DNA from: Desulfuromonadaceae bacterium
GTDB taxonomy: Bacteria > Desulfobacterota > Desulfuromonadia > Desulfuromonadales > Syntrophotaleaceae
Length of the DNA stretch: 64,000 nt
Reading direction: 5' to 3'
Assembly: GCA_007134025.1 (NCBI GenBank)
Contig: SLLR01000030.1
Span: forward strand, 1-64,000
Under the pieces are notes generated by a model. That model was not told where the DNA came from and made no database searches. It saw only the letters and a list, made by a program, of their open reading frames with translations. Below, piece by piece: positions 5,271 through 60,198 of the stretch (its first letter is position 1; each line of letters begins with the position of its first letter). A program made the translations under genes and the position numbers.

Positions 5271-5345
<75 letters not shown>

Positions 5346-5412: not shown

Positions 5413-5487
<75 letters not shown>

Positions 5488-5551: not shown

Positions 5552-6421
5552 TCAGCGCACTGTTGTGCCGCCTTTTGGCAAAACGGTTTTGTGCCACACG
5601 TTCATGCTTTCCATGCCACCAAAGATATTGGTGTTGTTGGTCAGGGTGCCGCTGTAGGTGTAGCCCTGCCGTGCAAAAGTGATGTTCATGCCGTAAGAGT
5701 AGGCCCTGGCGATGGTATAGGCTGTGCTGATACCATTTTCCAGCAGGTGTTTTTCCATCTCCGCCAGAAGACAGGTCGCCAACCCCTTGCCTCTGAAATC
5801 AGGCAGTGTCGCAAAATCCGTCATTTCAGCATTCCCTCCTGCACAATCCATTTCCGCTGAGGAAAGAGCTACCAGTCGCCCTTTACACCAGATACCGAAG
5901 TAGGCCACATTATCCTCCATGGTCTGGCTCAGGTAGTTTGAATCGTGAATGGGGAAAGGGTAGGTGGCGAACACGTTTTGGTAAACTTCCGCCATGGCGT
6001 TGATGTCATCAGGGGCTGCTTCCCGGGAGGAAAAGGAGTCGTCCGGCAGAGACGTCCCTTCGCCTGCGAAACTCTGCTTGCTTTTGGCGGCCGACAGCAC
6101 ATCGCGGACCAGATCTTGTTTCTTCTCCCGGGCCCGTTGATCGCTGAGAAATTTGCCCAAAAAAAGAACATCTTCCTGATGGTTGTAGAAGCGGGGAATG
6201 CGCGCTTCGGCAATATAGCCTTTGTCGGTAAAAGGCGCTTCGGCTGACGCGGGCACTTTGGCGAAGATCTTGCTGTACTGGTGCCGTTCAGCCAGTTTGT
6301 CAAGTTCCGTCAAAAGTTGAGGCAGGTCGCCCGGATCCAGTTTCATCAGGTAAGCGCGGTCATTGTATTTGCCGTGTTGGACCGTGCTGTTGCCCAGCGT
6401 CTCTACAATATCACTCGTCAT
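5552..6421 (-). CDS. ablB: Putative beta-lysine N6-acetyltransferase
   Basis: A 289-residue GNAT-family protein matching the AblB type, which acetylates beta-lysine to the compatible solute N-epsilon-acetyl-beta-lysine. The acetyl-CoA-binding segment is visible as [21 protein letters not shown] (about residues 222-243). The N-terminal half contains the family's IYAKVP-like stretch (KIFAKVPAS) and [12 protein letters not shown]. It overlaps the end of ablA by 11 bases, so translation is coupled. The assignment rests on the gene pair with lysine 2,3-aminomutase as much as on the GNAT motif. Confidence 0.9.
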
Positions 6422-7730
6422 TGTTGCGCCGCTCCAGTCTTTCGTTGTCCTCAGGGGTCAGCGAGATGTCATCGTAAGAATCGGAAAGCAGCTTTTCAAT
6501 GCCGGTGGCATCCGTTTCTTCGGCATCGGTCAGATTCAGCTGTAATTTGCAGTCGTCACATTTCCGGTTGCAAAAAATCGGTTTATAACTGTCTGGCTCT
6601 TTATAGGCGGTAATGACACCCTCATAGTTCCGTAAAACTACCTTGTTGGTTGACAGGGAGATCAGATAGTTGGGCGAAAGCGGAATCTTGCCGCCGCCTC
6701 CCGGTGCGTCGATTACATAGGTGGGAACGGCAAAACCGCTCGTATGGCCGATAAGGCTTTCCATGATTTCGATGCCCTTGCCCACCGGTGTGCGGAAATG
6801 GGACAGCCCCTCGGAAAGATCGCACTGATACAGATAGTAGGGACGAACTCGGTTTTCGACCAGGCGATGGACGAGGGCTTTGATGATCCTGGGGCAGTCA
6901 TTGACTCCCGCCAGCAGGACAGTCTGATTGCCAAGAGGCAGCCCGGCGTCGGCCAGTTTTTGCAGAGCCTGGCGGGCCGAAGCGGTGATCTCTCGGGGAT
7001 GATTGAAGTGGGTGTTAAACCACAGCGGGTTGTGTTTTTTCAAAATCTCAACCAGTGCGTCAGTGACGCGATAGGGGAGAACGACAGGCATTCGGCTGCC
7101 AATGCGTATAATCTGAATGTGCTTGATTTTGCGCAACTCGCCAAGGATCCAGTCAAGATAATCGTCCGACAGCATCAGGGGGTCGCCACCGGAGAGCAAT
7201 ACGTCACGAACTTCGGGCGCGTTGCGCAGATATTCCAGGCCTTTTTCGACAGTCTGGCGGTCAGGTATCGAGTCCCTGTCACCGACCTTGCGCTTACGCG
7301 TGCAATGGCGACAGTACATGGCGCACAGATTGCTGATGTGAAACAGGACCCGATCGGGATAACGGTGGGTGACGCCGGCAACCGGGCTGTCCTGGTCTTC
7401 GGCCAGAGGGTCGCTCATGTCCAGTCGGTCGATGTCCATTTCTTCCGGACAGGGAAACGACTGTTTAAATATGGGATCGTTGCGAAAGTCGTCCCGGTCA
7501 ATCAGAGACAGATAGTAGGGGGTGATGGCCAGGGGGAACTTATTGAGGGTTTCGAGCAGTCTTTGCCGCTCCTGAGGTTCAAAGGTAATATCCAGAAGGC
7601 TCTCGAACTGATCGATGTCATGAATTGTATGTTGCATCTGCCAGTTCCAGTCGGTCCAGTTTGCATAACTTGTTTCGGAATCGGACAGCCTTTGGGCAAT
7701 CTTTTGCTGCTTTTCGTTGTAGATGGACAT
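6411..7730 (-). CDS. ablA: Lysine 2,3-aminomutase
   Basis: A 439-residue radical SAM, PLP-dependent aminomutase converting L-alpha-lysine to L-beta-lysine. The cluster-binding CxxxCxxC is C136-C140-C143 ([12 protein letters not shown]). The PLP lysine is expected at K348 in [15 protein letters not shown]-terminal CNRKCDDCK motif fits the zinc-binding cysteines seen in the clostridial enzyme. GGDPLMLSD (about 181-189) is another family signature. AAGGAG stands just before the ATG. With ablB it forms a two-step osmolyte pathway; lysine fermentation is less likely because no catabolic partners are nearby. Confidence 0.95.
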
Positions 7731-7835
7731 GGGTTCTCCTTGGCAATGTTGAAGCCGAAAAGTAAGTTGGAATGTAGACTTAGATAGTTTGACAATTTGC
7801 AGTAAACTGGCAAAGCTGAGACATGTCAGCGGACG

Positions 7836-8441
7836 TCATTCGGGCTGGCGTTGCCCCTCTGGACAGGTGGTCGAGATCACTTTCTCGGGCGCTTCAGATT
7901 TCATCAAGTCAACAACTTTTTCAAAAGCCAGGGCTATTGCGACCTGTTCCAGTTCGGGAAGTTTCTGCAGGGCTATTTCGAGAGACTCCTGGACCGGTGA
8001 CGGCCTGCTGGAGAGAAAATGCTGACCTTTTTCCGTCGCGGTAATCGTAACGCTGCGGCGATCCAAGGTGCTGCGCACGCGCCGGGCAAGGCCTTTGTCT
8101 TCCAGGCGGTCGACAATGCCGACGATGGTGCTGGGGCTGAGACAGGCGATCTGGGCCATCTTCTTTACGGTTAACGACGATTCGTCCTTGAGGGCCATAA
8201 GACAGACCAGTTGCGGTCCGGTAATCTGGTGACAGGTGTCCAGTTTTCGCGAATGCAGCTCGATGGCTCGAATGATTTGCCTCAGCGAACGAAATATGCG
8301 CAGTTGGTAGTTGTCCTTCGATGCGACAGGACTATCCGGAGTCAGGTCCGGGCTCTGTTGCACCTTCAGTTGCGGCTGGTTTGTGGCCCGGTCTGTTGAA
8401 TTCAGCGAATCACCAGGGGTTTTATTTGATGATTTGGACAT
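7836..8441 (-). CDS. MarR-family transcriptional regulator, probable regulator of ablAB
   Basis: A 201-residue winged-helix regulator. The HTH reads LTVKKMAQIACLSPSTIVGIV, followed by a wing with RRVRSTLDRRSVTITATEKG, typical of MarR. An unusual polar, probably disordered N-terminal extension of about 45 residues (rich in S, T, P, Q) precedes the domain. I choose the ATG at 8441 (MSKSSNK); an upstream in-frame TTG at 8483 would overlap the palindrome that I take as operator. It lies 105 bases upstream of ablA in the same direction. MarR proteins control osmolyte genes elsewhere (EctR for ectoine), so osmotic control of ablAB is a reasonable inference. Confidence 0.85.
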   Translation of the reverse strand: MSKSSNKTPGDSLNSTDRATNQPQLKVQQSPDLTPDSPVASKDNYQLRIFRSLRQIIRAIELHSRKLDTCHQITGPQLVCLMALKDESSLTVKKMAQIACLSPSTIVGIVDRLEDKGLARRVRSTLDRRSVTITATEKGQHFLSSRPSPVQESLEIALQKLPELEQVAIALAFEKVVDLMKSEAPEKVISTTCPEGQRQPE

Positions 8442-8470
8442 GATGTGGAAACTCTCAGTTGGGCGGTATT

Positions 8471-8494
8471 TTTGAGCGTTCAATTGAACTCAAA
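8471..8494. promoter_or_regulatory. Near-perfect palindrome, candidate MarR operator
   Basis: A 24-base inverted repeat centred on CAATTG: TTTGAGcgTTCAAT on one side and its complement with two mismatches on the other. It lies 30-53 bases upstream of the MarR ATG, the position of an autoregulatory operator. A weaker related sequence with arms AGTTT/AAACT (7786-7808) precedes ablA. Confidence 0.5.
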
Positions 8495-8857
8495 AAACAA
8501 CAAAAACGTTTGGGTAAAAATTGTTTCAACGCGAACAATATCCGTTTTGGCTCCCGATGTCAAATTCTCAGACAGGACTGAGGGCCTTATCGTTTCATCA
8601 ACAACGGGTTTTAGCAATTGACAGGTGCAAACACCTGCGCAGGAATGAAGTGGCGCAGTGACAAACTGGAAGAGTGAATTTTGTCGAAAGAATTTCCCCG
8701 GGGGAGGGTATTTCCCCAAGTCCAATAACGATATTTTCACGGTGAAACAGTTCAGTAGTCCGTTGCCCATCGTCGGACCTCGAGAGTTCTTTTCAAATAA
8801 TGAAAGCAGGAAAAAGAAGTTGCCTTTTTACAGACTGCGTGATAGAAATTCGGCTCT
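8495..8857. other. Intergenic region between the MarR gene and tRNA-Pro
   Basis: About 360 bases without a convincing gene on either strand. It contains a perfect hairpin CAGGTG-CAAA-CACCTG at 8622-8637 and a GC-rich CCCCGGGGGAGGG run near 8697-8709. A TTGACA at 8618-8623 overlaps the hairpin, but I see no matching -10 element. Confidence 0.5.
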
Positions 8858-8934
<77 letters not shown>

Positions 8935-9185
8935 TTTTTTGTCCTTCTTCATGATCTCTGTGGTCATGCCTGCGGATGCATGGAGCCTTAAACCGTATTC
9001 CAGCTGAGAGAGCTGGTGGCTGGAACCGGTTTTTGTTGGATTGACCAGCGTATTACTGACCTGCAAGCTTTTCTGGCCCTGTTTTTTGCCGCCGGGACGC
9101 CAGGTCTTTCGTTGAAAATCGAAGAATTCTGTTGCGCTCGCCCAAAGCATGAGACGGTTCCATGCTGGACAATAAGGATGCTCGT

Positions 9186-9262
9186 GCGCCAGTAGCTCAG
9201 CTGGTTAGAGCATCGGCCTTCTAAGCCGAGAGTCCCAGGTTCGAGTCCTGGCTGGCGTGCCA
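9186..9262 (+). tRNA. tRNA-Arg(TCT)
   Basis: A 77-nt cloverleaf with acceptor GCGCCAG/CTGGCGT (one G-U pair), anticodon loop CTTCTAA (anticodon TCT) and an encoded CCA. Confidence 0.97.
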
Positions 9263-9330
9263 AATTCCCTGGTGGCCACATTTAGCTTGACAAGCGGTCG
9301 GGTGGCTTTGTAGACTTCCGCAGTTTTTAC

Positions 9331-9407
9331 GGTGGGTGTAGCTCAGTTGGTAGAGCACTGGATTGTGGCTCCAGTTGTCGAGGGTTCGAGCCCCTTCACT
9401 CACCCCA
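9331..9407 (+). tRNA. tRNA-His(GTG)
   Basis: Anticodon loop TTGTGGC (anticodon GTG). The gene encodes the extra 5' G(-1) opposite discriminator C, the identity element of tRNA-His, as well as the CCA end. The acceptor is GTGGGTG/CACTCAC. Confidence 0.97.
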
Positions 9408-9420
9408 TTTTTCAGCGACT

Positions 9421-9494
9421 GCCCGTCTCCCGGTGATCCGAGGGCCGCTATCGAGAGATCAGCGGTTGGATCGTCATGGACGGGCTTTTATTTT
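9421..9494 (+). terminator. Terminator with long structured stem, possibly a small RNA
   Basis: GCCCGTC (9421-9427) pairs with GACGGGC (9479-9485). Inside, GATCC (9435-9439) pairs with GGATC (9468-9472), and GCCGCT (9444-9449) pairs with AGCGGT (9461-9466). A T-rich run TTTTATTTTAT follows. It is placed to end the tRNA-His transcript, but its nested stems are larger than a simple terminator needs. Confidence 0.55.
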
Positions 9495-9590
9495 ATCTTC
9501 TGACGGCCGCTTGTTGTTTCAGGGCCTGCGGTTTCAAATGACAGGGTGTTTTCTCCGATCAGAGGTTTCACCGGATATCACCTGTCTGTT

Positions 9591-9675
9591 GCGAGAGTGG
9601 CGGAATTGGCAGACGCACTGGATTTAGGATCCAGCGGGTAAAACCGTGGGGGTTCGAGTCCCCCCTCTCGCACCA
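9591..9675 (+). tRNA. tRNA-Leu(TAG)
   Basis: An 85-nt class II tRNA with a long variable arm, acceptor GCGAGAG/CTCTCGC, anticodon loop TTTAGGA (anticodon TAG) and an encoded CCA. Confidence 0.97.
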
Positions 9676-31352: not shown

Positions 31353-33908
31353 ATGCAAGAGCGCTACGATGCGGCTGCTATTGAAGAAAAATGGCAACGG
31401 CAATGGGAGGAGCGGGACACATTTGTGGTACGGGAGGATCCGGACAGACAGAAATATTATCTGCTGGAAATGTTCCCCTATCCCTCCGGGCGCATTCACA
31501 TGGGTCATGTTCGCAACTACTCTATCGGCGATGTGGTCGCTCGGTTCAAACGCATGCAGGGTTTGAATGTTCTTCACCCCATGGGGTGGGATGCTTTTGG
31601 CATGCCGGCGGAAAACGCCGCCATCCAGCATGGCACCCACCCGGCCCGGTGGACCCGGGAAAATATCGCCCACATGCGCTCTCAGCTCAAGAAAATGGGC
31701 TTCTCTTACGATTGGACTCGGGAGTTTGCGACCTGCGACGCGGAATATTACCGCTGGGAGCAATTGATCTTTTTAAAAATGTACGAAAAGGGCTTGACTT
31801 ACAAGAAAAGCTCTTTCGTAAACTGGTGTGAGCCGTGTCAGACGGTGCTGGCCAATGAGCAGGTGGAAGACGGTCGCTGCTGGCGCTGCGACTGTGAAGT
31901 AGAGCAGAAAGAGCTGGAACAGTGGTTTTTCAAGATCACCGCCTATGCTCAGGAACTGCTTGATGAAACGTTTCATCTCAAAGGGTGGCCGGAACCAGTT
32001 CTGACCATGCAGAGAAACTGGATCGGTTGCAGCACTGGTTGTGAAATCGACTTTGCTGTGGAAGGCTCCGGGACGGTCATCAAGGTCTTCACCACCCGTC
32101 AGGATACCCTCTACGGAGCGACCTTCATGAGCCTGGCTCCAGAACACCCGATGGCCCTGGAACTGGCCTCGGCCGAGCGGCGCCGAGGGGTGGAAGCCTT
32201 CATCGCCAAGGTGCGCCGCCAGGATAAAACCGGTCGGGCCAGCGGTGATTACGAAAAAGAGGGTATTTTTACCGGCAGTTACTGCACCAATCCGGTAACC
32301 GGTGATTCCCTTCCCGTCTATCTGGCCAATTTTGTGCTGATGGATTACGGCACCGGCGCGGTCATGGCTGTGCCGACCCATGACCAGCGCGATTTTGAGT
32401 TTGCCTCCCGCTATGGTATTCCCAAGCGGTTGGTGATTCAGCCGGACGGCGGAGTTTTGACCTCCGAAACCATGACCGAAGCCTGGATCGGGTCCGGGCG
32501 GCTGGTCAACTCTGAATCTTTTGACGGTCTCGACAACGAGACCGCCAAGGAAAAGATCGCGGACTATCTCGAGTCCCGGGGAATCGGCCGTAAAAGGGTC
32601 AACTTCAGATTGCGCGATTGGGGCGTCTCTCGTCAGCGTTATTGGGGAACGCCGATTCCGATCCTCTACTGCGACGGTTGCGGCACGGTTCCGGTCCCGG
32701 AACAACAGTTGCCGGTTCTGCTGCCTCAGGACGTGCGGATTTCCGGAGAGGGCGGCAGCCCCCTGACGCAACACGAAAGTTTTCTCTATACGGTGTGCCC
32801 GAACTGCGGCGGGAGGGCGAGGCGGGAGACCGATACCTTTGACACTTTTGTTGAAAGTTCCTGGTATTTTGTTCGTTTCGCCAGTCCCAGGGAACACAAC
32901 GCGCCCTTTGACCGTGTGGCGGCGGAATACTGGCTGCCCGTGGACCAGTATATCGGCGGCATCGAGCATGCGGTCATGCATTTGCTCTACGCCCGCTTTT
33001 TTACCAAGGTGTTAAGGGATCTGGACATGCTGGCGGTGGATGAGCCTTTCCGCAACCTGTTGACCCAGGGCATGGTCTGCATGGAAACCCGCTCTTGTCC
33101 CGAACATGGCTGGTTGTTCCCTGAAGAGGTTGAGGAAGGGTGTTGCAGCAAATGCGGCCGCAAGGTGACCCTGGGCCGTAATGAAAAAATGAGTAAATCA
33201 AAAAAAAATGTGGTGGACCCGGATCAACTGATTGGTCGTTATGGTGCCGACACGGCTCGATTGTTTTCGTTGTTTGCGGCACCACCGGAAAAGGATCTGG
33301 AGTGGAATGAACAGGGTGTCGAGGGCTGCTATCGATTTCTCAACCGGGTCTGGCGGGCGGTCTATGAAAATATGCAGGATCTTGCTTTCACCGAAACGGT
33401 GAACGAGGACGCCTTTGCCGGCAGAGTACTGCGTCGCCACACACACCGGACAATCCGCAAGGTGACCGAGGATATCGACGGCCGATTCCACTTCAATACC
33501 GCCATCTCGGCAATCATGGAACTGGTCAACACAATTTATGCTTTTGAGGCCAAAAAACAGTGTCCGAGCGCGTTGCGGGAAGCCCTAGAAACGGTTGTGC
33601 TGCTGCTTTCGCCCTTCGTTCCCCACCTTTGCGAAGAATTGTGGCAGCTGCTCGGGCATTCCGGCGGCTTGGAACAGGCCGGATGGCCGAATTACGAAGC
33701 GGCAGCCCTGACCGAAGATGAAAAGACCATCGTCGTACAGGTCAATGGCAAGGTGCGGGGCAAGGTGACTGTCGTCGCCGATGCGGACCAGGAGACACTG
33801 AAGGCAGCAGCGCTGGCGGAAGAGAATGTATTGCGCTTCATCAAGAACAAGACCGTCCGTAAGGTGATCGTGGTGCCTGGCCGGCTGGTGAACGTGGTGG
33901 CGTCATGA
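31353..33908 (+). CDS. leuS: Leucyl-tRNA synthetase
   Basis: An 851-residue class I synthetase. The HIGH motif lies in [14 protein letters not shown] (about residues 43-56) and KMSKS in [13 protein letters not shown] (about 611). The CP1 editing domain carries the [13 protein letters not shown] threonine-rich region near 248. Zinc-like cysteine sets occur at CDGCG and CPNCGG. GGAGG precedes the ATG. The stop overlaps lptE by four bases. Confidence 0.98.
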
Positions 33909-58788: not shown

Positions 58789-60198
58789 GGGAGACGGGTC
58801 TTTTGGCAGCCGGGTGGCCACCTGGCCCATAATTCGACGAAAAGCGGCGTATTGGGTTTCAGGAAAAGCTTCTTCGGCGGTCGCTCCCTGCATTCGGCGA
58901 ATCAGCAAAAATTCGTCGGCGGAAACATTTTCCAGCAGACCAGCTTTTTCCACCAGGCGAAACAGAGGGGTCTTTTCTCTGCCCAGAAAACGGTTCTCAA
59001 AAGTTTTCAATTCGATGTTTTTGCGGGAGACTTCCAGCCCCTGCTCATCGAAGCGATGAAAACAGAGTTCAAGCTTGGCGGTATCCGTTTCCCCCCGATT
59101 CAGCCGCAGGGCAAAATAGGAACGCTCAGACGATTCCCGAAACAATTCCCGCAGCGGATTGCCGCCGCCGACTTCTTTCTGGGTTCGGTAAAAATACCGA
59201 AAAACCAGATCGGTGAAGCAGTTTTCCTCTAAATAGCCGCAGACCCGACCATCGGCCGTTTCGCCGTAGAAGAGTCCTTGTTGCTCCCTGGGCGGCTCTT
59301 CCAGCGACCGGTCGCAGACAAGACAGTCCGGCAACAGGTTCTCCAGCCGCTGACGCAAAAACTGCTCTTTTTCCCTTTGCCGGTTCTGCTGCTGCCGGAT
59401 GTAGTCCACCCGGTACGTTTCGCAGCCCTTGGCGGCCAACATGATCTGGCGGGCCAGGTGGGCAAACTGGCGGTGGACATTGGTTCCGCGACCGTGGGTC
59501 AGGATCGGGTAGACACGCCCTTCGGGATTGGTGTTAAGGGATTCGACCTTGGGGCTTTTGGCGATAAATCCCTCCATGCAGCGGTAACCGCGATTGATGG
59601 CGTAGGCCTTGAGCAGTTGATAGGCGTCGGTGAAAGGCCCCTTGTAGCGAATGCGGGAATCGATCAGACAGGGCAGCAGGCGCAGGGCCTTTTTGGGAAT
59701 CCCCTGGCTTTGACAGAAATCGTAAAGATTGCGACAGTTTTCCAGCGACGGTGTGTCCTTTACCGGGATCAGGACCAGGTCGGCCGCGCACAGGGCGTTG
59801 CGGGTCAGAATGTCCAGGGTAGGGCGGGTGTCGATAATCACGATCCCTTCCAGATCGCTGGCGGCCAGGCTGCGTGCCACCCGGTCTGGGCCGGCCTCCC
59901 TAACCTCGGCAAGTTCTTCGAGGCGCCGGCTGGAAGGGATGAACTGCACGCCGTACTCGCCCAGTTCCAGCAGATCCTCCGGGCGACGGCCGGTAAACAG
60001 GCCGCCGACATCGCCATTGCCGCCTTTCTTGCCGATACGAAACAGGCGCTCCACGGAGAAATGATTGTCGAAGCTGAACAGGGTGAGCGGCAGGTCTTCA
60101 TTAAGGGCCTTGAGATACACGGCCAGATTGATGGCCAGGGTGGTTTTTCCCACCCCGCCTTTTTCGCTTGATATGGTAACTACATAGGGTTTTCGCAT
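58738..60198 (-). CDS. ParA/MinD-like ATPase with long C-terminal extension
   Basis: A 486-residue protein. The first 270 residues are a ParA-type P-loop ATPase: the deviant Walker A SSEKGGVGKTTLAIN (residues 10-24), and IVIIDTRPTLD (about 118-128) as Walker B region. The last 200 residues are not recognised; they include a CLVCDRSLEEP pair (CxxC near 300), a QRLENLLPDC coiled part and an aromatic-rich FTDLVFRYFYRTQKE stretch. No ParB is adjacent. A role in localisation or cell-cycle organisation is inferred from the ATPase part only. Confidence 0.85.
   Translation of the reverse strand: MRKPYVVTISSEKGGVGKTTLAINLAVYLKALNEDLPLTLFSFDNHFSVERLFRIGKKGGNGDVGGLFTGRRPEDLLELGEYGVQFIPSSRRLEELAEVREAGPDRVARSLAASDLEGIVIIDTRPTLDILTRNALCAADLVLIPVKDTPSLENCRNLYDFCQSQGIPKKALRLLPCLIDSRIRYKGPFTDAYQLLKAYAINRGYRCMEGFIAKSPKVESLNTNPEGRVYPILTHGRGTNVHRQFAHLARQIMLAAKGCETYRVDYIRQQQNRQREKEQFLRQRLENLLPDCLVCDRSLEEPPREQQGLFYGETADGRVCGYLEENCFTDLVFRYFYRTQKEVGGGNPLRELFRESSERSYFALRLNRGETDTAKLELCFHRFDEQGLEVSRKNIELKTFENRFLGREKTPLFRLVEKAGLLENVSADEFLLIRRMQGATAEEAFPETQYAAFRRIMGQVATRLPKDPSPSPSLADLSDAAAVHQP

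Follow-up and report, generated by a model that had tools for sequence, protein, structure and literature searches.

The window analysed here, a 64-kb stretch from a 2.25-Mb genome assembled in 149 contigs, carries on its minus strand three genes in the order marR, ablA and ablB, with marR first. The marR gene (7836–8441) encodes a 201-residue protein that matches the MarR family model PF01047 at 51.6 bits (cut-off 24.6), and its start is likely the ATG at 8441, since an aligned ATG is present in the nearest relative found, the Desulfuromonadales bacterium CSSed11_297R1 assembly (76–77% MarR identity; the sister genome below). Past a gap of 105 bp (7731–7835) lie the lysine 2,3-aminomutase gene ablA (6411–7730; TIGR03820, 767 bits, cut-off 525) and the beta-lysine N-acetyltransferase gene ablB (5552–6421; TIGR03827, 351 bits, cut-off 205), which the end of ablA overlaps. 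The preliminary description of this DNA had thus correctly placed a MarR gene directly upstream of the acetyl-beta-lysine genes. However, the archaeal-type osmolyte in a bacterium to which it drew attention is not unusual here: among 136 genomes of the order, 56 have ablB, and a 2012 paper predicted ablAB for Pelobacter carbinolicus (PMC3543383, in the part available). No operator, promoter-like or terminator-like site is listed in the marR–ablA gap, suggesting a common transcript, and no ectABC genes adjoin marR in the 64-kb window. Two tRNA genes with equal Rfam scores (5271–5342 and 5413–5484), 70 bp apart, adjoin ablB, and five more occur in the interval from marR to the trigger-factor gene or within 9.7 kb, four of them in 8858–9672. 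We read CSSed in the name of the sister assembly as Cock Soda Lake; excerpts of PMC6146748 describe CSSed11 as a data set of moderate salinity and the lake as moderately hypersaline, at about 100 g per litre.

A search of the literature on acetyl-beta-lysine, ablA/ablB and the aminomutase returned no MarR regulator of bacterial ablAB and no other described transcription factor for these genes, the main CosR and EctR papers being outside its scope, so that an earlier mention is possible. PMC1224877 was discarded as an acetyl-beta-lysine/MarR paper, as "Marr" in the available part of it belongs to an author's name. The sole control of bacterial ablA found is the tandem Na+/c-di-AMP riboswitch that precedes ablA in Dehalobacter sp. 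CF (PMC9337991, available part). Such an RNA could also control ablAB of the window, with marR being incidental; the Dehalobacter device acts on the same enzyme gene, but the 12 Rfam matches in the window are 11 tRNAs and one L20 leader, and no match lies near ablA. We therefore rejected riboswitch control as very improbable.

The match to PF01047 is joined by a winged helix in the AlphaFold2 model of the MarR protein, spanning about residues 42 to 182 (mean pLDDT 80.6), with pLDDT above 90 in most of residues 51–140. Residues 1–40 are predicted to be disordered (block pLDDT 44–54). The long polar N-terminus had been called unusual, but the segment before the conserved core varies in relatives too, from 20 to 98 residues (mechanical starts, core recognised). 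The protein has no C-terminal LETGP-like tail of the kind found in most relatives, and together with its sister it sits on a long branch (0.99) of a 42-row tree; its function may therefore have drifted. With MarR, SlyA, MprA and HpaR it shares fold and superfamily, and the NCBIfam HpaR, MprA and SlyA models match it weakly; however, its scores are far below the curated cut-offs, and four E. coli or plasmid rows fall across a branch with support 81/96 in the tree. On one side of this branch are 35 ingroup rows with a single outgroup row, Methylosinus, and on the other are six further MarR rows.

The closest functional comparisons are with EctR, represented by EctR1 of Methylomicrobium alcaliphilum and by ectABC-linked MarR proteins, and with CosR of Vibrio. 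EctR likewise belongs to the MarR family and is encoded beside osmolyte synthesis genes, and the ectABC-linked MarR proteins match the window protein by sequence. As proxies for EctR1 and CosR, ectABC-linked and Vibrio homologues are 30–39% identical to it. Vibrio CosR is a MarR-family protein whose regulation extends to several compatible-solute systems, ectoine and proVWX among them (PMC7876524, available part), and a homologue in Vibrio nigripulchritudo (34% identity) adjoins proVWX with ectA beyond, a 19.7-bit site for the element described below lying between ectA and proV. In contrast, CosR is known to act on ectoine, betaine and transporter genes, whereas the gene here adjoins acetyl-beta-lysine synthesis genes. 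The tree is compatible with one clade of the window protein, EctR and CosR but does not prove it: a single ingroup clade is not rejected in an AU test (p 0.547), yet one long outgroup row is placed within it, only 5% of 200 bootstrap trees contain such a clade, and the branches are long. The ect- and abl-linked proteins interleave, with the abl-linked L252 pairing with the ect-linked L257 (100/97) and the abl-linked L243 with the ect-linked L266 (95/91).

A DNA element shared by these regulator genes was sought by an expectation-maximisation palindrome search upstream of 43 non-redundant regulator genes, which yielded a 24-bp motif; the family matrix was then rebuilt from 41 promoters, with the window and its sister left out (consensus aAATnaTTcGnATnCgAAtnATTt). 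Across 63,977 window positions, its best match is at 8518 (20.6 bits) and its second at 8503 (17.7 bits), defining two overlapping operator candidates in the marR promoter region: O1 (8518–8541), the imperfect palindrome AAATTGTTTCAACGCGAACAATAT, and O2 (8503–8526), shifted by 15 bp. Further matches are at 58999 (14.7 bits), taken as chance, inside a 486-residue reading frame, and at 31452 (12.9 bits). Matrices from other promoters return to the same place. One built from 35 ect-linked marR promoters, which come mostly from Alcaligenaceae and in no case carry a title of this order (consensus AaATnATTTcaattgAAATnATtT), ranks 8518 first and 8503 second in the window, and one built from 17 promoters of the order that do not lie beside ablAB ranks 8503 first and 8518 third. 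The two retrained motifs reached log-likelihoods of 83.5 and 353.4, against 44–51 and 41–59 in five shuffled sets each. The sister genome keeps the pair (20.8 and 17.5 bits), with a –35 box, TTGACT, that differs by one change.

The predicted marR promoter (8535–8563, minus strand) consists of TTGACA (8563–8558), 17 bp and TATTGT (8540–8535). This match alone is not significant, because two promoter-like sites were found versus 2.3 in shuffles. O1 begins 22 bp beyond TTGACA and includes the predicted –10 box. Of the 28 regulator promoters that have a site, 22 show a TTGACA-like box (5 or 6 of 6, sought about 19–34 bp before the element) 22–30 bp ahead of the element. The EctR operator is described in the available part of PMC5924519 as an AT-rich pseudo-palindrome over the –10 region, with two 8-bp half-sites 2 bp apart. 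The element of the window, compared with this published description of the EctR1 operator, likewise has two half-sites around a central AT, and by prediction it covers the –10 region at 8518–8541, where the ect motif also finds it. However, five alphaproteobacterial EctR loci lack the element (no site of at least 9 bits). Scanning the window's own genome with the pattern gave one site with a single mismatch, which is O1; with up to three mismatches there were 78 sites versus 49 in a reversed control, and O1 is therefore the sole informative match of that scan. Among 61 loci taken as outside the order, some of which are vaguely titled and could belong to it, 40 have a site upstream of the regulator (shuffles average 0.10). 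Copies of the element recur 15 bp apart in many loci, which suggests dimers binding side by side. The cultured Desulfuromusa kysingii DSM 7343 (L204) has a 22.8-bit site between marR and ablA.

These results point to 8503–8541 as the conserved operator candidate, close to but away from the place first proposed. The preliminary description had pointed to a near-perfect 24-bp palindrome centred on CAATTG within 8460–8500, in the promoter region of marR. Such a palindrome exists, with CAATTG at 8481–8486 and a perfect inner 12 bp; it is not near-perfect over 24 bp, the best frame (8472–8495) pairing at 9 of 12 positions, and the centre of its 8-bp outer arms, TTTTTGAG/CTCAAAAA, is displaced by one base. 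A role for this marR-leader palindrome as the operator, or as an additional one specific to the species, could be argued from its perfect core, its arms and its closeness to O1 and O2. Against this reading, 34 windows in the 64 kb pair at 9 or more of 12 positions, so that 33 others pair as well as it does or better; its position is downstream of the predicted –10 box, the sister genome has not kept it, and the best family-matrix score in its region is –3.4 bits. We therefore rejected it as the operator and consider any operator role for it quite unlikely. A weaker sequence had also been proposed before ablA, but no position in the 400 bp ahead of this gene has an operator score above 0.6 bits. 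The DNA evidence first put forward was thus not borne out, and 8503–8541 takes its place.

The association of the regulator with osmolyte genes was followed across the order by a profile of 32 relatives (E up to 1e-25), which recovered 47 regulator genes in 41 of 136 genomes. Both the regulator and ablB occur in 30 genomes, 26 of the ablB-bearing genomes having no regulator, and in 25 of these 30 the two lie within about 3 kb of each other. Altogether 28 of the 47 regulator genes adjoin ablA, i.e., those 25, two in genomes with no ablB detected (G081 and G091) and one cut by a contig end (G100), whereas ten adjoin proV or lie within about 2 kb of it, eight adjoin genes without a known osmolyte link or KamA-like genes only, and one (G001) is at a contig end. 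The marR–ablAB linkage persists with differing flanking genes. Beyond the order, a collection of 84,980 species gave at least 551 confirmed homologues of the window protein, the best 80 of which (19 in the order, 61 taken as outside) were classed by their neighbours at chosen identity thresholds as 35 ect, 18 abl, 7 pro only, 1 KamA-like only and 19 other. They include marR–ectABC in Alcaligenaceae, marR–ablA–ablB in a Desulfurivibrio assembly and marR–ablA in a Hydrogenedentota assembly. The window protein also matches ectABC-linked MarR genes in a plasmid collection; among 13 inspected of the 52 records matched there, six adjoin ect or pro genes, four adjoin other genes and three are unannotated, with no ect or proVWX genes recognised in these three.

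Several arrangements around these loci are worth recording on their own. A planctomycete assembly (L252, 4471–6714) has marR–ablA followed by a gene for an MscS-like mechanosensitive channel, another osmotic link. At L169 and L173, in genomes without the regulator, proX lies directly before ablA–ablB on the same strand, with proV and proW ahead of proX in L169, which ties both solute systems together. One family of the order has extra regulator copies, at L072 and L074 both beside a c-di-GMP enzyme gene, at L075 beside a gene for a UspE-like protein and at L076 beside one for a Kef-like potassium transporter, with a site of at least 16 bits in L072 only. Another regulator branch in Alcaligenaceae (L221, L223, L226–L228, L230 and L233) adjoins an aminotransferase gene whose product is 33–39% like EctB, and no site of at least 13 bits was found at these seven loci.

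The preliminary description had suggested comparing ablAB upstream regions in relatives, and this comparison was made. Within the 1150 bp before ablA, the marR promoter included, a site of at least 16 bits is present in 29 of 31 loci whose genome has the regulator versus none of 25 whose genome lacks it (Fisher p 6e-14), a count that includes marR-promoter sites, most of them from the training set. The training-independent part is the 400 bp before ablA, where the element is present in 11 of 31 loci versus 0 of 25 (p 6e-4). Both p values are optimistic, because the genomes are related rather than independent. Three loci with incomplete ablA were dropped (L143 with the regulator; L162 and L163 without), and at a threshold lowered to 14 bits, one of the 25 loci without the regulator matches. 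Scored with the matrix from the 17 non-ablAB promoters, 28 of the 29 loci that have the regulator exceed all 24 that lack it, a count that leaves out the two misses of the first comparison (L057 and L100) and L143, and also L048, L162 and L163. With the ect matrix, only 9 of 29 loci that have the regulator score higher than every locus lacking it. Sites often lie between marR and ablA at loci where the regulator's own promoter is without the element, e.g., L089, L141, L143 and L145–L149, all outside the training set.

These counts bear on whether MarR controls its own gene only, ablAB being a neighbour with a separate, unrelated promoter. The window itself would fit that arrangement, its element standing before marR and no site within 400 bp of ablA. 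However, the 11 sites near ablA include two, in G045 and G031 (one genus), where the regulator adjoins proV and a 24.3-bit site stands 83 bp ahead of an unlinked ablA; moreover, the linkage survives changes of flanking genes, and the marR–ablA gap has no promoter-like or terminator-like site listed. We consider control of marR alone improbable. Genome G017 has an ablA without a site although the regulator is in the genome, and G030 has none before ablA in the 161 bp visible. A site of at least 16 bits occurs at 0 of 20 unlinked proV loci in genomes lacking the regulator and at 2 of 20 where the genome has it, namely 72 bp before proV in L284 and, in L291, 384 bp before proV and nearer another gene. 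We therefore rejected proVWX as a general second target, and the regulator differs in this respect from CosR, which regulates many unlinked genes. The contig of the window's genome ends 127 bp beyond its proV match, so that the proV promoter is not seen on it.

We propose that marR probably encodes an EctR/CosR-type, self-regulated repressor of marR–ablA–ablB that acts through the 24-bp element and is released by salt. Homology, linkage to three osmolyte systems (ablAB in the window and beside 28 of the 47 regulators, proV beside ten, and ectABC beside 35 of the best 80 homologues) and phylogenetic footprinting give strong support to the preliminary suggestion of an EctR-like MarR osmoregulator. 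What the sequences show is the family resemblance, the linkage and an operator candidate that occurs together with the regulator; binding, repression, a common transcript and a salt signal are inferred. Repression of a common transcript is favoured because the element lies over the –10 box, because no sites are listed in the gap, and because EctR and CosR are described as repressors (PMC5924519 and PMC7876524, available parts). A MarR dimer would occupy 8518–8541, with probably a second dimer on the overlapping 8503–8526. Bound over the –10 box, MarR would block transcription of marR and, as these genes would be reached by read-through, that of ablA and ablB too. A rise in external salt, with ions building up in the cytoplasm, would release the repressor; ablAB would then be made and the osmolyte would accumulate, and with marR under the same operator the system would be self-adjusting.

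The nature of the signal is where this proposal has its most serious competitor. With the same operator, MarR might instead sense a small molecule (e.g., lysine, beta-lysine, acetyl-beta-lysine or glycine betaine) or act as an activator. The fold comparison includes several MarR structures whose titles describe them as ligand-bound or ligand-regulated (6-hydroxynicotinic acid, p-hydroxybenzoic acid), and the signal of EctR is given as unknown in the available part of PMC5924519. However, an element over the –10 box of the window, and 22–30 bp after a TTGACA-like box in most regulator promoters with a site, fits repression, and one family and one motif serving different solutes would be better explained by a general signal than by one ligand. 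We regard this alternative as rather unlikely, though clearly less so than the others above; ionic strength appears to be the likelier signal for the salt-released repressor. In an ectR mutant, the ect genes are still salt-induced (PMC5924519, available part), and an EctR-like repressor may therefore not be the main salt switch.

The same observations allow a broader proposal, to which we give somewhat less than an even chance: that one MarR–operator module, with proteins of a single MarR family recognising almost identical 24-bp palindromes, has been passed between unrelated osmolyte systems over several phyla, serving acetyl-beta-lysine, ectoine and glycine betaine uptake, and perhaps KamA-type beta-amino acids, and responds to some general feature of the salty cytoplasm and not to any single solute. 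A shared operator, if true, would let osmolyte genes be predicted in uncultured lineages. With a defined operator candidate, its copies 15 bp apart and a cultured carrier in Desulfuromusa kysingii DSM 7343, the question of what EctR and CosR sense becomes testable in a second osmolyte system.

Finally, KamA-like radical SAM genes are often found near the regulator or ablAB (L071, 6996–9364; L140, L141, L145, L148 and L152–L154). Their products are about 38% identical to AblA and fall short of the cut-offs in the models for lysine, glutamate and arginine 2,3-aminomutases, and they may make a further beta-amino acid osmolyte. At L071, a 22.7-bit operator candidate precedes two such genes.
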